Origin: Acidobacteriota bacterium
Lineage (GTDB): Bacteria > Acidobacteriota > Terriglobia > Terriglobales > Acidobacteriaceae
Direction of reading: 5' to 3'
Length of the DNA: 47,704 bases
Assembly (NCBI GenBank): GCA_021792795.1
Contig: JAJYUB010000027.1
Location: 1 to 47,704, forward strand
This document shows, piece after piece, positions 1,218 through 35,015 of the stretch (within the stretch, counting starts at the first letter, position 1; each line of letters begins with the position of its first letter). The notes beneath the pieces are model-generated. The model worked only from the letters and a program-made list of their open reading frames with translations. It was not told the origin of the DNA and did no database searches. Both the position numbers and the translations under genes were made by a program.

Positions 1218-4022
1218 ATGAACAGTTTTGGCAGCCGGTCGGAGTTGAAATCCGGCAATCGCACATACGAGATTTTCAAACTGAGCGCGCTGGCGCAGCA
1301 TGGCGTTTCGCTCGCAAGCCTGCCGTACTCGCTGCGGATTCTGCTTGAGAATCTGCTGCGCCATGAAGACGGAAAAAGCGTCACCGCCGAGGACATTGAG
1401 TTTCTGGCGAAGTGGGACGCGAAGGCCGAGCCCTCACGAGAAATTGCCTACATGCCGGCGCGTGTCCTGATGCAGGACTTTACCGGCGTGCCCGCCGTGG
1501 TGGACTTGGCAGCGATGCGGGATGCCATGCGCTCGCTGGGCGGCGATCCGGAAAAGATCAATCCATTGCAGCCGGCGGAGCTGGTGATCGACCACTCGGT
1601 GCAGGTAGACCAATACGGCACCAGCGATTCGTATCAAATCAATTCGCTGATGGAGTATCAGCGCAACGTGGAGCGGTATGCGTTTTTGAAGTGGGGCCAG
1701 ACGGCGTTCCATAATTTTTCCGCTGTGCCGCCGGGCATGGGCATCTGCCACCAGGTGAACCTGGAATACCTGGCGCGGGTGGTGTTCACCACGCAACCGG
1801 ACGCGGAGGGTGTCGTACAGGCCTATCCCGACACGGTGGTTGGCACGGACTCCCACACCACGATGATCAACGGCCTGGGCGTGCTGGGCTGGGGCGTCGG
1901 CGGCATTGAGGCCGAGGCGGCGATGCTGGGCCAGCCAGTGTCCATGCTGGTGCCGCAGGTGGTTGGATTCAAGCTGGAGGGCAAACTGCGCGAAGGCACC
2001 ACGGCGACCGATCTAGTGTTGACCGTGACGGAGATGCTGCGCAAGCACGGCGTCGTCGGAAAATTCGTGGAGTTCTACGGGCCCGGCATCAGCGAGCTAT
2101 CGCTGGCCGACCGCGCCACTATTGGCAACATGGCGCCGGAATATGGCGCGACCTGCGGCATTTTTCCAGTGGACGCGGAAACGTTGCGCTATCTGAAACT
2201 GACGGGGCGGACCGAGGAGCAGATTGCGCTGGTCGAGGCGTACTACAAGGAGCAGGGGCTGTTCCACACGCCGGATGCGCCGGAGGCGAAGTATTCCGCG
2301 ACGTTGTCGCTCGACCTGGCCACGGTGGAGCCGAGCGTGGCTGGACCGAAGCGTCCGCAGGACCGGGTGCGGCTGAGCGATGCCGCAACCAGCTTCAAGA
2401 AGCAGTTGCCGGCGCTGAAAGGTCCGAGCGCCAATGCGAATGCGGAACGGCAAGTGCAGCGCTGGAATGGGGAGGGCGGTCATCCGTCGGCGAATGGAAA
2501 TGGCAACAACAATGCCAAGGGGGCTTTGGAGCCGGGCCATGCGGCGTCGATTCACGATCGCTTTGGTGTCGACGTGGACCAATATCTGGACCATGGCTCG
2601 ATTGTGATTGCGGCGATTACAAGCTGCACGAACACGTCGAACCCATCGGTGATGTTGGCGGCGGGCCTGCTGGCGAAGAAGGCGGTGGAAAAAGGACTGA
2701 GCGTTCCGCCGTGGGTGAAGAGTTCGCTGGCGCCGGGTTCGCGCGTTGTTGCCGATTATTACAACAAGGCAGGGCTGACGAAGTATCTCGACGCGCTGCG
2801 ATTCAACATTGTGGGCTATGGCTGCACGACGTGCATTGGCAACTCCGGCCCGCTGCCGCCGGACGTGACCAAGGCGATCGACGATCATGGCCTGGTGGCG
2901 GTGTCGGTGTTGAGCGGCAATCGAAATTTTGAAGGCCGCATCAATTCGGATGTGCGAGCGAATTATCTGATGTCGCCGCCGCTGGTGGTTGCGTATGCGT
3001 TGGCGGGCAGGATCGATCACGACTTCGAGCATGATGCGCTAGGCAAAGATAAACAGGGCCAGCCGGTGTATCTGCGGGACATTTGGCCGTCGCAGCAGGA
3101 AGTGCAGAGTACGCTGGCCAGTTCGATCGACTCGACGATGTTTCGCAAACAGTATGCAACGGTGAGCGATGGCGACAGCCACTGGCAGAAGCTGAAGTTT
3201 CCAACCGGCAACACCTATGGCTGGGAGTCGGATTCGACCTACATCCGCAAAGCGCCTTACTTCGACGGCATGAAAGCCACGCCGACGACGGTGGAAGACA
3301 TCCACGGCGCGCGCGTGCTGGCGGTGCTGGGCGACAGCGTGACGACGGACCATATTTCTCCGGCAGGCTCCATCAAACTGAACGGTCCGGCGGGGAAGTA
3401 CCTGACGGAGCATGGAGTGAAGCCTGCCGACTTTAACAGCTACGGATCGCGGCGCGGCAACCATGAGGTGATGGTGCGCGGAACGTTTGCGAACGTTCGG
3501 CTGCGCAACAAGCTGGCGCCTGGAACGGAGGGCGGCGTGACACGGCTGCTACCGGAAGGCGAGCCGATGAGCATCTTCGACGCATCCGTGCGGTATGCGG
3601 AGCGGAAGACGCCGCTGATTATTCTGGCCGGTAAGGAGTACGGTTCGGGATCGAGCCGCGATTGGGCGGCGAAGGGACCGAAGCTGCTGGGCGTAGGCGC
3701 GGTGATCGCGGAAAGCTTCGAGAGAATTCATCGCTCGAACCTGGTGGGCATGGGGATCTTGCCGCTGCAATTTGAGGCGGGTGAAAATGCCGAATCGCTG
3801 GGCCTGACCGGGGAAGAGGTCTACAACATTCCCGGATTGCACGCGATGCTGGAGGCGAAGTTTGCCAACGGCCGCAAGCTGACTGTGCAAGCGAAGAGCG
3901 CCGACGGCAAGACGAAGGAGTTTACGGCGACGGCGCGCATCGATACTCCGCAGGAAATTCTCTATTACCAGCACGGCGGGATTCTGCTGTACGTGCTGCG
4001 ACAACTGGCAGGGAAGGCGTAG
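1218..4022 (+). CDS. acnA: Aconitate hydratase (AcnA type)
   Basis: Catalyses citrate-isocitrate interconversion in the TCA cycle with a [4Fe-4S] cluster, in the cytoplasm. The three cluster cysteines are visible: Cys470 in [10 protein letters not shown], and Cys536 and Cys539 in [11 protein letters not shown]. Their spacing (66 and 3) is that of the AcnA/IRP family. The substrate-binding [12 protein letters not shown] motif lies in the C-terminal swivel domain. At 934 residues the protein is somewhat longer than typical AcnA (about 890). The excess includes a low-complexity linker rich in Asn, Gly and Ala at about residues 395-440, just before the domain carrying Cys470. The ATG at 1218 has GAGGAG about 8 bases upstream. 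The gene is monocistronic, bounded by a strong terminator and by paired short repeats. Confidence 0.97.
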
Positions 4023-4069: not shown

Positions 4070-4158
4070 GCGCTTACAGCCATGCCCAGGCCGTTGTATC
4101 GTAGGGGAACCTGCTTCTGGAGCGGATCGATGGCTCGTGTAGCCAGATTCCAAATGGA

Positions 4159-4266
4159 GTCATTCTGAATGGAGGTCGCCCGGCGACAGGAGTGAAGAAT
4201 CCAGACCATGCGCGCCTAGTACGTACCGTCATTACATTCAGGATTCTTCTCTTCGCTCAGAATGAC
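4159..4266. repeat. Short interspersed element with 10-bp terminal inverted repeats, copy 2
   Basis: A 108-bp stretch with the same exact termini as copy 1: GTCATTCTGA at 4159-4168 and TCAGAATGAC at 4257-4266. The internal AGTGAAGAATCCAGAC (about 4191-4206) is the reverse complement of the internal block of copy 1, so the two copies are in opposite orientation around acnA. It also has a second internal GGATTCTTC (about 4241-4249). There is no ORF of its own. Confidence 0.7.
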
Positions 4267-4314
4267 TCATCCCCAAAATGATTACACCAACTGTAAATCC
4301 GCATTGACTTCTTG

Positions 4315-5507
4315 ATGCCAGCCCCTTCAACATCGCGTGTCACGCCGAAGACATCTCCTTCAGAATCGAAGGGACATCGATGGCATTTGCGACGGATCAC
4401 TTCGGATGGGTCCTGGATCCCCGAGATCGATGGATTGCGTTTTGTCGCGATCAGTTCCGTCGTGCTGTATCACGTCTTCGCGCAGTTGCTGATGAAGAGT
4501 GGGCAGCCCGTTGCGGTGCAAGCCCGGTACGCGTTGCTGGGCACAGCCGTCGGGAATGGCGACCGGGGAGTGCGGCTTTTTTTGTCATCAGCGGATTTAT
4601 TCTCGGCATGGGGTTCGCGCGCCAGCATTTGCGCCTTGGCAAGCCGGTCAGCCTGAGGAAGTATTTTCTGCGCCGTGTTACCCGGCTTGAACCGCCCTAT
4701 ATCCTGAACCTTGTTTTCTGCGCATTGGTCGCCTTCTTTTACTACCATCAGGCGCTGGGGTATATGGTTCCTCACCTGTTGGCAAGCATCCTGTACCAGC
4801 ACAATCTGGTCTATCGCACCCCCAGCGCCATCAATGGCGTTACGTGGAGCCTGGAAGTTGAAATTCAGTTCTACATTCTCGCTCCGTTGATTTCACTCTT
4901 GTTTCGGATATCCAGCGTTTGGGCGCGGCGTTCGGTCTTCCTGGGTTTGATTGCCATCATTGGAGTCGCGCAAATATTACTTCATGCCAACGCGACCGTT
5001 GCCGCCCTGACCATCGTCTTTTACATGCAATATTTCCTTGCGGGGATGCTACTGACGGACCTGTACTTGACGGTGCGTCCGCGCGTTCGGACCCATTGGG
5101 CATGGGACATTCTGAGCCTATGCGGCTGGCCGGCCGTTTTTCTGGTATCGCGAGACTTTCTCTGGTTTCACGCGATTTTGCCGTTCCTGATTATGCCTCT
5201 GTACATTGCGGCATTCCAGGGAGTGGCATTTCGAGCTTTCTTCAGCAATCTTTGGATCGCCACCATCGGCGGCATGTGTTATTCGATTTATCTCTGGCAT
5301 TTTTTTACTATTGGAGTGTTTTTCAAACTGACGCGACACTTGATTATGTTCCACGATTTTTTGTTGAACTTCAGTTTGCAGATTCTTGCGTTGGGGATTC
5401 CTATTGCCACGGTCAGTGTGCTCGCTTTTGCGTTGATCGAACGGCCGTGCATGGATCCGGCGTGGCCGCGGAAGCTTTGGCAATTCCTGAGGCACAAGGC
5501 CGCATAG
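4315..5507 (+). pseudogene. Acyltransferase 3 family membrane protein, frameshifted at a T7 run
   Basis: An integral membrane acyltransferase of the OafA/YrhL type (acyltransferase 3), which typically O-acylates surface polysaccharides or other envelope substrates. The N-terminal part, with the hallmark IDGLRFVAISSVVLYHVF, reads from ATG 4315 (a TTG at 4312 precedes it). The rest (FFVISGFILGMGFARQ onward, including the family NGVTWSLEVEIQFY motif and about eight further hydrophobic segments) lies in another frame. The change of frame falls in a run of seven Ts at 4577-4583. Rereading one T, or an eighth T, would give an uninterrupted protein of about 397 residues. All downstream motifs are intact, so this may be a recent mutation, a sequencing error, or true -1 or transcriptional slippage. 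It stands alone between acnA and a convergent small gene. Confidence 0.85.
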
Positions 5508-5976: not shown

Positions 5977-7026
5977 CTATTTTTCCAGGGGCGATGGATA
6001 TTGCTCCACGCGCTGTAGCAGTTCCAATTTTTTACCGGGCGGCAGAAAACTGGCTTCGATCGAATTTCCCGCCAACTCGCGCAGATGTTCCAGTGCCAGG
6101 TGAAACTCCGTATGCGCCAGGCAATATTCCGCGCAAAGATCGCTGCCGAACAGCGCCGGGTCGTCCGAGTTGAGCGTCACCATCAATCCATTTTCAAAAT
6201 AATTGCGGACGGGATGGTCTTCCAAACGGGCGCAACAGCCGGTACGCAGGTTGCTGGTGATGCAAATCTCGACAGGGACCTGTCTGGTGGCCAGGACTTC
6301 CACCAGATCGTCGTCGCGCCCAGCCGTGAGCGCGTGGCCGATTCGTTCCGCGCCGATGTTCAGGGCCGACCAGATGCCCTCCGGTCCTACGGTTTCTCCG
6401 GCGTGGGCGGTGAGATGCAGGCCATTTTTTTTGGCTTCGGCGTAGAGTTCGCGAAAGGGCCCGGCCCCGGTGCGGCGCTCGTCTCCGCCAATGCCGATGC
6501 CGATGATGGAAGGGTGCTGCTGCTTCAATTCCGCGGCCTTATTAAATACGCGCGCGGCTTCTTCAGGGCCGAAGTGGCGCACGGCGTCGAAGATCCAAAC
6601 CACAGAAACGCCAAATTCCCGCTCGCCGCGAATCCGGCCGCGTTCCATGCCTTCAAACAGCGGCTCGAATTCAATGCGCCGCCAATAGTAGACGACGCCG
6701 ACAGAGACATAGACTTCGGCGTGGACGACTCCCTGGGCGGCCAGCGCTTCGATCATGCGATAGGCGGTGAGCTCATAGTCGTCCGGCGTGCGCAGCCTCT
6801 CGGTAATCGCTTTGAAGGCCAGCATGAATCCGGTGAAGTCTTTGTATTGGTAGAGAGCGCGGGCAGCGTCGAGCGTGAGCGGCGCTGCGTTCTTGTGCCG
6901 GCTCAATTCGACCAATGTTTCCGGCGCGATGGTGCCTTCCAGGTGCAAATGCAGCTCCGCCTTGGGGAGATGTCGAATCCACGATTGCGTGTCGAAGGTA
7001 CGGACGGATTTGACTTTCGCGGACAT
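5977..7026 (-). CDS. add: Adenosine deaminase-family hydrolase
   Basis: A 349-residue metal-dependent amidohydrolase of the adenosine/AMP deaminase superfamily, which hydrolyses an adenine-type amino group to give the inosine-type product. Metal ligands are visible as His26 and His28 in KAELHLHLEG near the N-terminus, then HAGE in the middle, and NSDDP near the C-terminus with the catalytic Asp pair. The start at ATG 7026 overlaps the TGA of the permease gene (TGATG), so translation is probably coupled. The open frame extends further upstream but that part is the shadow of the permease. The alternative function is aminodeoxyfutalosine deaminase of the futalosine menaquinone pathway, which has the same motifs; no other menaquinone gene is nearby to support it. 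The coupled transporter hints at import and use of a nitrogenous substrate. Confidence 0.9.
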   Translation of the reverse strand: MSAKVKSVRTFDTQSWIRHLPKAELHLHLEGTIAPETLVELSRHKNAAPLTLDAARALYQYKDFTGFMLAFKAITERLRTPDDYELTAYRMIEALAAQGVVHAEVYVSVGVVYYWRRIEFEPLFEGMERGRIRGEREFGVSVVWIFDAVRHFGPEEAARVFNKAAELKQQHPSIIGIGIGGDERRTGAGPFRELYAEAKKNGLHLTAHAGETVGPEGIWSALNIGAERIGHALTAGRDDDLVEVLATRQVPVEICITSNLRTGCCARLEDHPVRNYFENGLMVTLNSDDPALFGSDLCAEYCLAHTEFHLALEHLRELAGNSIEASFLPPGKKLELLQRVEQYPSPLEK

Positions 7027-8588
7027 CAGGAATCGATCCGCTTGGCGGAGGCAAATTCGCTGCGAAAACGGCTGTAGAAGAAGTAGATGAGCAGGCCGAT
7101 GGCCAGCCAGATAAAAAAGCTGACCCAGGTGAGCATGGGCAAGCCCAGCATGAGCAGCAGGCAGAAGAACATGCTGAGCAACGGGATGACGGGGCCGCCG
7201 GGACAGCGAAAGGCGCGGTGACGGTCGGGATCCTTGTAGCGCAGAATGATGACTCCCGCGGAGACCAGCACAAAGGCAAACAGCGTGCCGATGTTGGAGA
7301 GGTCGGCGAAGGTGCCAATGTCCAGCAGTCCGGAGGGCAGGCCGACAAAGAGACCGGCAATCCAGGTGGCGGCAGCGGGGGTACGGAAGCGCGGATGCAC
7401 CCGACTGAACAACGCGGGCAGCAGTCCGTCCCGCGACATGGCGAACCAGACCCGCGCCTGACCGATCTGAAAGACCAGGATGGAGGAGATCATCCCCAGC
7501 AGCGCGCCAAATAACACCACCAACTGCACCCAATGCAGCGTTTCGTTGTGGTTTTCGAGGTAGAGCCGGCGCAGTGTGTTCACCACCGGCGCGGCATCCT
7601 CCGTCAGCAATTGCCAATGCACCAGGCCGGTCAGCACCAGGGCGACGCTGACGTAGAGAATGGTGGCGACGACCAGCGTGGCGATGATGCCGATGGGGAC
7701 ATCGCGCTGCGGATTCTTGCATTCTTCGGCTGCGGTGGAAACGGAGTCGAAACCGATATATGTAAAGAAAATGATGGAGCCGCCAGTCAGCACCCCGGAC
7801 CAGCCATTGGGGTAAAAGGGACGCCAGTTGGAGGCGTGGATGAACTGGGAGCCGATGATGACGAACAACAGGACGGCGCCGATCTTGAGCAGCACCATGA
7901 TGTTATTGGTTTCCGCAGATTCGCGGATGCCGCGGACAAGAACTACGGTCAACAACATGACGATCAGAAACGCAGGGACGTTAAAGCCGAAATGCCAGCC
8001 GGGCGCGTAGAGGGCGTGGCCGCTCAGATCTTGCAGTCCGCTGGGTAGATAGGCGGGAGATATCCAGCGCAATGCCGGATGGATTCCGAACCAGTCCATC
8101 AGGGCCACCACGTGCGCGGCAAAACCAACGCTGACAGCCATGTTGGAGAAGGCGTATTCCAGAATCAAGTCCCAGCCAATGATCCAGGCCACCAGTTCTC
8201 CCATGGTGACGTAGGTGTAGGTGTAGGCGCTGCCGGCGATCGGGATCATGGAGGCCAGCTCGGCATAGCAGAGGCCGGTAAATCCGCAGACGATGGCCAC
8301 CAGCAACAGCGAAACCGCCAGCGCCGGACCCGCGCCGGGACGGCCCAGCATCGCCGTGTGACGCACCAGATAATCCAGCACGGGCGTGTTGAGGATCGAG
8401 GAGGCGTCGAAGCGTTGCCCGGCAATCGCCGTGCCGATGACGGTAAAAATGCCGGAGCCGATGACCGCGCCAATGCCCAGCGCCGTCAGCGACAAAGGGC
8501 CCAGCGTTTTCTTCAGACTATGTTCGGGCTCTTCCGAGTCGTGGATCAGCTTGTCGATGGATTTGGTGGCGAAGATCTGTTTTGACAG
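7026..8588 (-). CDS. APC-family amino acid permease (CAT type), probable CTG start
   Basis: An inner-membrane amino-acid permease of the cationic amino acid transporter branch of the APC superfamily. About 12 hydrophobic segments are visible, with the family GIGAVIGSGIFTVIG signature in TM1. The first conventional start (TTG 8495) would lie just before TM1 and cut off the N-terminus. The frame continues upstream with a typical family leader (QIFATKSIDKLIHDSEEPEH) up to an in-frame stop, without any ATG, GTG or TTG. A CTG at 8588-8586 has AGGAG 8 bases ahead, which would give a 520-residue protein of normal family length. I therefore infer a CTG start. The stop codon overlaps the start of the deaminase gene. 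Confidence 0.9.
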   Translation of the reverse strand: MSKQIFATKSIDKLIHDSEEPEHSLKKTLGPLSLTALGIGAVIGSGIFTVIGTAIAGQRFDASSILNTPVLDYLVRHTAMLGRPGAGPALAVSLLLVAIVCGFTGLCYAELASMIPIAGSAYTYTYVTMGELVAWIIGWDLILEYAFSNMAVSVGFAAHVVALMDWFGIHPALRWISPAYLPSGLQDLSGHALYAPGWHFGFNVPAFLIVMLLTVVLVRGIRESAETNNIMVLLKIGAVLLFVIIGSQFIHASNWRPFYPNGWSGVLTGGSIIFFTYIGFDSVSTAAEECKNPQRDVPIGIIATLVVATILYVSVALVLTGLVHWQLLTEDAAPVVNTLRRLYLENHNETLHWVQLVVLFGALLGMISSILVFQIGQARVWFAMSRDGLLPALFSRVHPRFRTPAAATWIAGLFVGLPSGLLDIGTFADLSNIGTLFAFVLVSAGVIILRYKDPDRHRAFRCPGGPVIPLLSMFFCLLLMLGLPMLTWVSFFIWLAIGLLIYFFYSRFRSEFASAKRIDS

Positions 8589-8637
8589 GGTCTTGGCTCC
8601 TGAAATTGCATTTCGCTCAATCCATCATTCGAGTCGT

Positions 8638-11609: not shown

Positions 11610-11719
11610 GAAAGGGAAGACTCCTGCGGTTGCGAGCGCGAATTGTATCCACTCGCTCGATACATCTTCAGTGTATCGCGTGGAAGCGTCCGCACTGGTC
11701 GCGATATCCTGATGCTACC

Positions 11720-12283
11720 GTGGCGAAACCGAAAACTATTTGCGTCTATTGCGGGTCTGCCGTGGGAGCACGCGCGGAGTATCGAACGATTGCGGCGGAA
11801 CTAGGCACCGCAATCGCCGAGGCCGACTTCCGGCTGGTGTATGGCGGGGCGCATGTCGGCCTGATGGGCATTGTTGCAGACGCAGTGCTGGCCGCGGGCG
11901 GGGAAGTTGTCGGTGTGATTCCGCAGCAACTGGCGGACCGTGAGGTGGCGCATCGAGGCTTGACCGAGTTGCACGTTGTCCGCACCATGCACAAACGCAA
12001 GCACATGATGGCGAAGCTGGCGGATGCATTTGTGGCGCTGCCCGGCGGCTACGGAACGTTGGATGAACTGTGCGAAGTTCTCGGCTGGGCGCAACTGGCG
12101 ATTCACGAAAAACCCATCATCCTGCTGGACGCGCTGGAATATTGGCAGCCGTTGTTCGCAATGCTCGACCGTGCGGTGGAGGAGGGTTTTCTACAGCCGC
12201 AGCATCGCCAGCACGCGATGCGCGCGGCAGGTGTAGCGGATGTCTTCAGGCTTTTGCAGGCGGAACGCCCGTTGCGTCGCTGA
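11720..12283 (+). CDS. LOG-family (TIGR00730) nucleotide phosphoribohydrolase
   Basis: A 187-residue Rossmann-fold protein of the LOG / lysine-decarboxylase-like family. Members hydrolyse cytokinin ribotides or nucleoside 5'-monophosphates to base and ribose 5-phosphate. Family signatures are ICVYCGSAVG at the start, GGAHVGLMG, and the diagnostic PGGYGTLDE at about residue 112. GTG 11720 gives the normal family N-terminus (AKPKTICVYCGS); the open frame upstream to 11630 does not look like protein of this family. No strong ribosome-binding site precedes it. Its 3' end overlaps the convergent DUF971 gene by 38 bases. Confidence 0.88.
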   Translation: MAKPKTICVYCGSAVGARAEYRTIAAELGTAIAEADFRLVYGGAHVGLMGIVADAVLAAGGEVVGVIPQQLADREVAHRGLTELHVVRTMHKRKHMMAKLADAFVALPGGYGTLDELCEVLGWAQLAIHEKPIILLDALEYWQPLFAMLDRAVEEGFLQPQHRQHAMRAAGVADVFRLLQAERPLRR

Positions 12284-22743: not shown

Positions 22744-22760
22744 CGCAACTGAGAGCGCTG

Positions 22761-22794
22761 AAGATGAAATGTAGAAGAAGATGAAATGTAGAAA
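22761..22794 (+). repeat. 17-bp tandem duplication before mdh
   Basis: AAGATGAAATGTAGAAG (22761-22777) is followed directly by AAGATGAAATGTAGAAA (22778-22794), 16 of 17 identical. It occupies most of the icd-mdh gap, just before the mdh ribosome-binding site. Confidence 0.75.
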
Positions 22795-25172: not shown

Positions 25173-25259
25173 GATTGGCAACTCCTCTTGAAGGGTAGAA
25201 ATCTTGTGTTGCAACGCTGCGCGGATCGGAATCGGTGGGGATTTCAATTCCGTGGAGAT

Positions 25260-32620: not shown

Positions 32621-33283
32621 TTACGGGTTGGACGCTTCTTGCCGGTTTGGGATGAGTTGCGTCAGCAGACGGCGCAGGGCATGGCCGCGATGGCTGATTG
32701 TGTATTTCTGTTCCAGGCTGATTTCCGCCATGGTCCGATCGAACTCCGGCAAATAAAAAAGAGGATCGTAGCCGAAGCCTCCGCAGCCGCGCGGAGCGTC
32801 GAGAATCATGCCCTCCACCGCGCCATGCGCAACTGCGATGCACTCTCCGTCGCGGGCAGCGGCCAGCACGCACCGATAGCGGGCGGTGCGATCGGCCTGC
32901 GAAAGGCCGCGTAGATTCTCCAGCAAAAACACATTGTTGCGGGCATCGTCGGTACTCGCGCGGAGCGACTCCGGATCGAAGCCGGCATCGGCGGCATACC
33001 GCGCTGAACGGACACCGGGCGCGCCCTGCAGTGCATCCACTTCCAGGCCGGAATCGTCTGCCAGCACGATGCAGCCGGGGGCGTGGCGGCTGTATTCCAT
33101 TGCCTTGCTACGAGCATTCTCTTCAAATGTGGCGCCATTTTCCGGCGGAGGCTCAATTTGCTCCATTCCAGGCAAGCGGACGAATTCAACTTCTCCGCCA
33201 TGCGGCCCGACGGCGACGGCGAAGTCGCGCAGTTTCCCTGGATTCGTGGTCGCAACGTGGAGTGTGAGAGGCATCGTTGGCAT
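32621..33283 (-). CDS. rdgB: XTP/dITP diphosphatase (RdgB/HAM1)
   Basis: A 220-residue nucleotide house-cleaning pyrophosphatase that hydrolyses ITP, dITP and XTP to monophosphates, preventing incorporation of deaminated purines. Signatures: TTNPGKLRDF near the N-terminus, ENARSKAMEYS, ADDSGLEVDALQGAPGVRSARYA, and FGYDPLFYLPEFDRTMAEI. Length and motifs are normal. Start is ATG 33283 or ATG 33274; no ribosome-binding site decides. Confidence 0.95.
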   Translation of the reverse strand: MPTMPLTLHVATTNPGKLRDFAVAVGPHGGEVEFVRLPGMEQIEPPPENGATFEENARSKAMEYSRHAPGCIVLADDSGLEVDALQGAPGVRSARYAADAGFDPESLRASTDDARNNVFLLENLRGLSQADRTARYRCVLAAARDGECIAVAHGAVEGMILDAPRGCGGFGYDPLFYLPEFDRTMAEISLEQKYTISHRGHALRRLLTQLIPNRQEASNP

Positions 33284-33397
33284 CGGGCAGTCGGCGATCG
33301 CGTTGGGGAGGATGACCGGCGGTCGGCGATACCGCCTGAATCGCAGCGAATTGGCTGCGCTCAGGCGGATTGCCGGATGAATGAGAGATGTTCGCGT

Positions 33398-33733
33398 CTA
33401 TTTTCCGGACGCAACAGAGGCGACCTGGACCGTCGTGCCGGAAACCGTGCCCTTGACCACAGCAGGCGCGCCAGCCAGTGCATACAACTCTTTCTTTACG
33501 TCAGCGCTAGCTTGCAGGGTATACACCTTGTCGCCGACCACCAGCGCGTAGGCAGATCCCATGCCAACGCACTCACGGGTACACTTGGCGGCGCTGGCGC
33601 CAGCCATCATATGCTTGGCGCCGCACATCTGGTCTGAGACGACGCCTTTCAGCGTTGTGGTCTGGGCGCTGGCCGCGGCGGCGGACAGCAGGGCAACGAT
33701 GGCGAACGGGCCGAGCGTGCGGGAAATGTTCAT
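33398..33733 (-). CDS. Small exported Cys-containing protein
   Basis: A 111-residue exported protein. The signal peptide (MNISRTLGPFAIVALLSAAA) is cleaved at about residue 23. The mature part begins TTLKGVVSDQMCGAKHMMAG and has a second Cys pair in KCTRECVGMGSAY, followed by a beta-rich domain (ALVVGDKVYTLQ, VVKGTVSGTTVQVASV). I recall this 'DQMCGAKHM...C..EC' pattern in Acidobacteria, as a small family of exported proteins of unknown role. Met and Cys placement could suit metal binding, but that is inference. AGGAAA precedes the ATG. Confidence 0.82.
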   Translation of the reverse strand: MNISRTLGPFAIVALLSAAAASAQTTTLKGVVSDQMCGAKHMMAGASAAKCTRECVGMGSAYALVVGDKVYTLQASADVKKELYALAGAPAVVKGTVSGTTVQVASVASGK

Positions 33734-33794
33734 TCGAGTTTCCTTTCAGAGGTCGGGTAGGTTTCCCTGGCGAGCAAAGTCGGCCAGGGAGTGT

Positions 33795-34526
33795 TCAGTA
33801 TAACGGTTTCGAATCGCCGGCAGGAAGATAGGGTTGCAAGGGACAGCCTTGGCAACGCGGGGTGGCGCCGCAGTGGCGTTTGCCGACTTCGACAATCAGC
33901 GCGTGCAGTTCATTCGCGTGGCGAGCTGTTTCTTCGCGGGTGGCGCTGGCAATCGCGCCATCTCCCAGGGCCTGCAATTCCGCATAGCGCGCATTGGCAG
34001 GGAGAAGCTCATGGCGCGTGACCACACGACGGAGGTATTCGTCCACGACAAACACGGGATGTTCGAGCGCATAGAGGAGAATGGCATCGGCAGTTTCCGG
34101 GCCGACACCGGGCAGCGCCAGCAATTGCGCGCGAAGCTCGGCCGTCGGCTGCTGCGCCATCCGATCGAGCGAGCCAGCGTAGTGATCGTCCAGAAATCGC
34201 ACAAAGGATTTGATGGAGGCTGCCTTGCGCACAACAAAACCGGAGGGGCGGATTGGCTGGCGCAACGCTTCTTCTGAAATGAAACGGATGCCTTCGATGG
34301 TGAGCAATCCAGCGGCGCGCAAGTTGGCGATGGAACGTTCCACGCTGCGCCATGCGGTGGCCTGGGTCAAGTAGGCGCCAAGCACCACCTCAAATGCTGT
34401 GTCGGCGGGCCACCACTTGCGGGTCCCATAGGCAGCCAGCAGTGCGGCATACATCGTGCGCAATTGTTGCTCGGACCCTGGGCCAGGGCCGGAGGCGCGC
34501 GAAGATTTGTGGCGGCGGCGGGTCAC
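33795..34526 (-). CDS. Endonuclease III-like HhH-GPD DNA glycosylase (MagIII-like)
   Basis: A 243-residue base-excision repair glycosylase of the HhH-GPD superfamily. The helix-hairpin-helix is [16 protein letters not shown]; the catalytic Asp is in [10 protein letters not shown]. At the position of the Nth catalytic Lys (GRKTAN) there is a Glu (GPETAD), as in H. pylori MagIII as I recall, implying a monofunctional glycosylase acting on alkylated bases rather than a glycosylase/AP-lyase. The C-terminal Fe-S motif is reduced: [16 protein letters not shown] retains three cysteines, with Leu where a fourth would be expected. The start is GTG 34526. It is divergent from yjbQ. Confidence 0.85.
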
Positions 34527-34580
34527 AACGATTTTCTCTGCGCTGGCAGAAATCCAGCTCTCCTCAGTATCCTATGGTGC

Positions 34581-35015
34581 ATGAAGGTCCATACGGAATA
34601 TCTGCACATGCAAACGGTCGAGCGGCGCGAGATTGTCCACATCACGCCGCAGGTGGAAGAGATTGTTGGGCGCAGCGGGGTCCATGACGGTCTGTGCTTC
34701 GTGTCGCCGATGCATATCACGGCCGCTGTGTACGTCAACGATCTGGAAGAGGGCCTGATCGAAGACATCATGGAATGGTTGGACAAGCTGGCCCCCGTAG
34801 GGCCGGATTACAGACACCACCAGACCGGCGAAGACAACGGGGACGCCCATCTGAAGTCGTTGCTGATGCACCATGAAACCACGCTGCCCATCACTGCGGG
34901 CAAGCTCGATTTAGGGCGGTGGCAACGCGTGTTTTATGCGGAGTTCGACGGACAGCGGCGCAAGCGCGTCATCGTAAAAGCGATGGGTGTGACGGAAACA
35001 GGTCAGGCCGGGTAG
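34581..35015 (+). CDS. YjbQ family protein (UPF0047)
   Basis: A 144-residue protein of the YjbQ/UPF0047 family, annotated as secondary thiamine-phosphate synthase enzyme. It shows the family features: [20 protein letters not shown], a [17 protein letters not shown] segment with the conserved His residues, and a C-terminal [19 protein letters not shown]. The ATG at 34581 matches the usual family start; longer open-frame sequence upstream overlaps the divergent glycosylase gene. Physiological role not established. Confidence 0.9.

Follow-up and report, generated by a model that had tools for sequence, protein, structure and literature searches.

Structure of the acyltransferase locus

The window analyzed here is the stretch of 47,704 nucleotides at positions 1 to 47,704 of contig JAJYUB010000027.1, from an Acidobacteriaceae genome (GCA_021792795.1; G000 below). 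It carries a gene of the acyltransferase 3 (AT3) family whose coding sequence changes frame at a run of exactly seven T (T7; 4577-4583), with C and G as its neighbours (Table 1). An earlier note on this DNA had reported both the run and two acyltransferase parts in different frames joining there, and both observations hold: ORFs, Pfam matches, alignment to an intact homolog and the substitution phase all agree. The zero-frame protein from ATG 4315 begins MPAPSTSRV, continues through IPEIDGLRFVAISSVVLYH and reaches GDRGVRLF, beyond which the conserved sequence is left; the frame stays open until the stop codon at 4654-4656, giving a product of 113 aa. The remainder of the AT3 protein, from FFVISGFILG to 5507, lies in the -1 frame. 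When the intact 397-aa protein of the congener G008 is aligned to the window (L030, in which coordinates are those of the window), it matches as two segments, each in its own frame, whose junction is at T7: residues 1-90 at 4315-4584 and residues 85-395 at 4566-5498. Substitutions relative to the congeners peak at position phase 0 upstream of T7 and at phase 2 downstream, and this switch in the phase scan supports the frame change independently of ORF calls. A run of seven is not rare in itself in the window, which contains nine homopolymer runs of at least seven, among them a second T7 within the same gene where the frame holds and G008 has TTC TTC.

Table 1. Features of the acyltransferase locus (window coordinates)
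Feature	Position	Strand	Remarks
N-terminal part of AT3 gene, zero frame	4315..4576	+	ATG 4315; R-X10-H is RFVAISSVVLYH; start common to G008 (L003) and G006 (L005)
T7 run, site of the frame break	4577..4583	+	One base short relative to congeners in the Leu-Phe-Phe codons
Out-of-frame tail of zero-frame product	4584..4656	+	Ends at stop 4654-4656
Rest of AT3 coding sequence, -1 frame	4584..5507	+	No internal stop; stop codon 5505-5507
Single downstream-frame ORF from alternative ATG	4380..5507	+	AAGGG upstream; 375 aa; lacks the TMH1 R-X10-H of the family
Second T7 in the same gene, internal control	5300..5306	+	Frame intact

The substrates of AT3 enzymes are carbohydrates, which in bacteria they often acylate at the cell surface; two of the family's motifs, R-X10-H in TMH1 and RXXR in TMH3, are reported to be essential, and the former is called absolutely conserved in AT3 domains (PMC9833829). 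A Pfam search with both window frames returned Acyl_transf_3 (PF01757) in the downstream frame only (profile positions 50-324 of 326, E 6e-27, 95 bits against a cut-off of 31), and the intact G008 protein scores 106.8 bits over profile positions 2-324 of 326. Both the downstream frame and the G008 copy therefore belong to PF01757 by a match above the cut-off. R-X10-H lies at residue 42 of the zero-frame product and RXXR, as RRVTR, in the downstream frame only; the G008 copy has the two motifs within one protein and the window does not. Since these two essential motifs sit in different frames, neither window product alone would be expected to work as an AT3 enzyme. Seven further PF01757 matches were found in the window's genome, six of them near full length and open and one at a contig end.

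The site in homologs

The homologous site was compared in 31 loci, known duplicates, remnants and the window itself being left out; two of these proved to be duplicates, leaving 29 distinct loci. L002 is a different gene from the genome that holds the window. Every alignment begins well before the site. All 31 loci (29 distinct) read through it in one frame. The T run at the homologous place varies from 2 to 8, and in the four of 29 where it reaches 7-8 the gene is in frame. Conservation of the run in relatives had been put forward as a check on the frame change; the homologs compared show no conservation of the run or of the frame change. The run is ordinary coding of Phe-Phe after Leu, Ile, Val or a similar residue and no conserved shift site.

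The Leu-Phe-Phe codons and the codon that follows are CTA TTT TTT GTG in G008, CTG TTC TTT GTC in G006, CTC TTC TTT GTG in G001 and TTA TTC TTC ACC in the BP5 MAG. The window is one base shorter here than all four. In each of these the Leu codon ends in a base other than T, and CTT accounts for 62 of the 611 CTN codons in 13 window genes. At least one substitution and one deletion are needed to convert between the window and G006.

In a wider family sample, 10 of 120 genomes have a match to the intact protein with E of at most 1e-60, and in nine of them (all except the window's own) the match is nearly full length and in one open frame. A plasmid collection gave no match, and viral contigs held no exact match to a 35-base pattern spanning the site. 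On a contig of Chitinophaga pinensis YS-16 (L026, about 2811-3932) an acyltransferase homolog lies in six pieces and three frames, with its breaks away from the site compared here; its breakage looks like long-read indel errors and is unlike that of the window.

State of the gene across the genus

The genus set comprised ten genomes, one per species: the window's own and nine congeners. G008 has the intact gene, and its DNA context is the same as that of the window from the end of the aconitase gene onward. In G006 similarity stops at residue 211 of 397 and is followed by unrelated sequence with other ORFs. In G001 it stops at residue 281, about 140 bases from a contig end, and a stop codon follows. 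The last stretch of G001 has a sub-threshold match to DUF4096 (IS4/5 transposase; E 0.068), and a similar stretch recurs elsewhere in G000, one copy having as its neighbour an ORF that falls just short of the DDE_Tnp_1 threshold (22.8 bits; cut-off 23). No aconitase match adjoins the G001 copy, so it may sit at another place. As these genomes are drafts, the truncations in G006 and G001 could in part be assembly effects. G007 retains 28 terminal codons, and the DNA matches flanking the missing part lie 30 bases apart. The remaining five (G002, G003, G004, G005 and G009) gave no match to the gene at E 0.001. The distance between flanking matches is 24 bases in G002, 156 bases in G005 and 831 bases in G004, whose lack of the gene is unlikely to be an assembly gap because that genome is listed as 100% complete. 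The earlier note had held that stop codons downstream in close relatives would mark simple decay, and the truncated copies of G006 and G001 and the remnant in G007 are of that kind.

In the tree of one neighbour gene from the ten genomes (a putative amino-acid permease, named by eye), G000 and G006 are sisters with a support of 0.989, and G008 joins them next with 0.968. Because the gene is intact in only one of the nine congeners and absent, truncated or a remnant in the other eight, the comparison indicates that the genus can do without it and that its loss is proceeding by several routes. In G006 (L019, 904-3839) the unrelated sequence immediately behind the truncated copy holds a 114-aa ORF without a Pfam match and then ORFs resembling a hydrogenase maturation protease and a ROK kinase, both putative and named by eye.

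Age of the break

Compared with G008, dN/dS is 0.10/0.58 before the break (87 codons) and 0.05/0.69 after it (307 codons), giving ratios of 0.07-0.17; the pair L003-L005 gives 0.06/0.58 (220 codons). Between 4315 and 4946 the window differs at 34 sites where G006 and G008 are identical, and third positions account for 6 of 12 of these changes before the break and 14 of 22 after it. Neither dN/dS nor the third-position shares give any sign of long neutral decay. With dN/dS low in both parts, the loss is read as recent; taken by itself, low dN/dS would suit a recent, a false or a tolerated break equally. The downstream part, without a further stop and with purifying-type substitution, looks as it would be expected to look were the true sequence intact.

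Other frame changes and repeats in the window

Thirty-three ORFs passed the filter of the phase scan (at least 100 codons and at least 40 variable sites, at least half of them at third positions). Off-phase stretches occurred in two, the acyltransferase gene and 34278-35012. The off-phase part of the latter overlaps the opposite-strand ORF 33798-34571 and was taken as lying upstream of the real start. The acyltransferase gene is thus the only one of the 33 with a mid-gene phase switch unexplained by gene overlap. At least one of the 33, 11749-12048 on the minus strand, probably just shadows the plus-strand gene 11630-12283; the region at about 15.4-17.9 kb has few variable sites and is weakly tested by the scan, and a putative adenosine deaminase gene (about 5977-7027, minus strand; named by eye from its translation) lies outside the 33. 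When ORFs of the relatives were compared with the window, 481 of 724 had a match, many of them in two frames; these two-frame matches were taken as antisense shadows, 5' extensions or gene ends, some being inspected by eye. The indels listed relative to G006 and G008 include three (19942, 21243 and 38135) that G008 does not share; it does share the one at 25179, but this lies upstream of the Met of a protein that we take to be PPIase-like. Further examples are at 8591, 17395, 17507, 32608 and 40700. Paired small gaps at 4320 and 4328 relative to the congeners cancel out and were dismissed as an alignment effect.

Several other features of the window were observed along the way. On the minus strand, ORFs 33401-33745 and 32624-33397 agree in substitution phase, with a single stop between them (33398-33400), and represent either two adjacent genes in the same frame or one gene with an in-frame stop. 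A 17-bp tandem duplication (GAAGATGAAATGTAGAA, twice) lies between two ORFs at 22760-22793, and G006 has one copy fewer. An intergenic element of about 180 bp at 4117-4302, with inverted arms GAGTCATTCTGA and TCAGAATGACTC, has many matches in the window's genome, mostly of 100-180 bases and 70-90% alike, and is also present in at least seven of the nine congeners among the matches listed. As single-stranded DNA it folds better than its shuffles (z -3.3, 0/200), and it looks like a REP/MITE-like dispersed hairpin element.

Origin of the frame break

The locus is most probably a fresh pseudogene of a dispensable acyltransferase, made by the loss of a single base: relatives have intact orthologs and the window a truncating frame change, the combination by which an indel pseudogene is recognized. 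With one base missing in the Leu-Phe-Phe codons, a ribosome that starts at ATG 4315 drops out of frame and terminates early. We infer a one-base deletion in replication, which could have arisen by slippage on eight consecutive T, had the Leu codon been CTT, or by loss of a base between CT and the Phe codons, itself creating T7. Given that none of the four relatives has a third-position T in Leu and that CTT is infrequent in the window, T7 may have resulted from the deletion as well as brought it about. That the gene can be spared would explain why the deletion became fixed or common: congeners have lost or broken their copies at other positions and by other means, and the genome retains other PF01757 genes. 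An acetyltransferase gene, yiaH, is entered as a pseudogene of one Salmonella genome in a table row of PMC8538453. The earlier note had left three options: a very recent frame change, an assembly error and programmed slippage. The comparison supports the first and speaks against slippage, as the site is not conserved, the RNA downstream forms no structure stronger than its shuffles do and the gene is dispensable; assembly error is left standing.

Such an error would give the same picture as a pseudogene. The main rival is accordingly that the organism's gene is intact and that one base was dropped from the consensus at the T run. Its appeal is that one base at a homopolymer makes up the whole break, that the assembly is in 133 contigs, that the part behind the break is open with a low dN/dS, and that the break stands alone among the homologs compared. 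Singleton frameshifts confirmed by BLASTp are expected in PMC3711429, for genomes of 2013 and earlier, to be sequencing errors and not genuine indels, and singleton status is read there as more often error. Against this, the phase scan found no second unexplained mid-gene switch among the 33 ORFs tested, and six other A/T runs of 7-8 lie in frame-intact genes (5300, 6425, 8949, 9577, 29273 and 38451; the gene at 6425, that for adenosine deaminase, was judged intact from the first phase scan alone). Moreover, the Leu codon without a final T in the nearest four relatives would suggest a true run of at most six, and CTT is infrequent in the window. The contig thus looks clean elsewhere, which makes a local consensus error less likely, and we consider it unlikely while giving it real weight.

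Slippage of polymerase or ribosome at T7 that yields a little full-length enzyme, or a tract that toggles within the population, is very unlikely; if true, a free-living acidobacterium would carry a partly active gene, and its surface-sugar acylation would be low or variable from cell to cell. Phase variation or leaky slippage, in which a change in run length or a slip of RNA polymerase toggles a surface-sugar acyltransferase, would agree with the carbohydrate substrates and frequent surface role of AT3 enzymes (PMC9833829) and with a break at a mononucleotide run in an otherwise preserved gene. Seven T is short, however, beside the runs of nine cited for bacterial transcription slippage in PMC5009743; the run is interrupted in all four nearest relatives, the homologs with T7-T8 are in frame, and the gene is missing or damaged in most congeners. 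Such switching is highly improbable here. Within the literature collection searched, no paper linked acyltransferase 3, phase variation and a homopolymer.

Programmed -1 ribosomal frameshifting at the zero-frame T TTT TTG would also restore the full-length enzyme. Slippery heptamers have the shape X XXY YYZ, and this one is in the right register with GGGGAG a few bases upstream. Yet in the relatives a single frame encodes the protein, which leaves nothing to be programmed, and GGGGAGT is carried by the intact G008 gene as well and is therefore ordinary GVR coding. In a test of pseudoknot-free folding, four stretches of downstream RNA were no more stable than their shuffles, with z of +0.45, +0.60, +1.74 and +1.16 (congener segments: +1.25 and +1.53), and the window lacks the conserved site that Table 1 of PMC3711429 gives as a criterion. 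Programmed slippage was rejected on conservation (31 of 31 loci in one frame) and RNA folding, and is barely conceivable. It is also hardly credible that the downstream frame is used alone as a separate product from ATG 4380. AAGGG precedes this ATG, and the 375-aa frame is then uninterrupted with no shift needed; but G008 and G006 have AAGGG-ATG at the corresponding position, out of frame with the gene, so ATG 4380 is incidental. Its product would have the wrong N-terminus and lack the TMH1 R-X10-H, the R..H at residue 44 being a chance occurrence outside the family context. The ATG of the downstream frame had suggested a further frame change close to the start (ATG 4380 versus 4315); this was likewise rejected, as G008, G006 and BP5 (L017) start in the frame of ATG 4315.

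Comparison with known systems

By itself the locus is of little importance. It illustrates compactly how a gene that probably serves surface modification is lost repeatedly, and at different places, within one genus, by apparent routes that include truncation ahead of unrelated sequence, IS-like sequence, deletion and the loss of one base; and the T run at its frame break is what conserved Phe-Phe codons yield by chance. The gene resembles the AT3 family (PF01757; OafA/OafB-like membrane proteins) in its Pfam match and in possessing both R-X10-H and RXXR, and differs in that the motifs are split between frames, leaving no complete AT3 protein in one frame. With homopolymer-based phase variation it shares a frame break at a mononucleotide run, but this run is short and unconserved. 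The closest likeness is to the pseudogenes made by single-base indels and to the singleton frameshifts classed in PMC3711429 as 'pseudogene' and 'H-pseudo / Error', in that the break is isolated, unconserved and truncating and lies in a gene that relatives have lost or broken. The locus departs from these classes in nothing beyond the usual, and the finding is an ordinary one.
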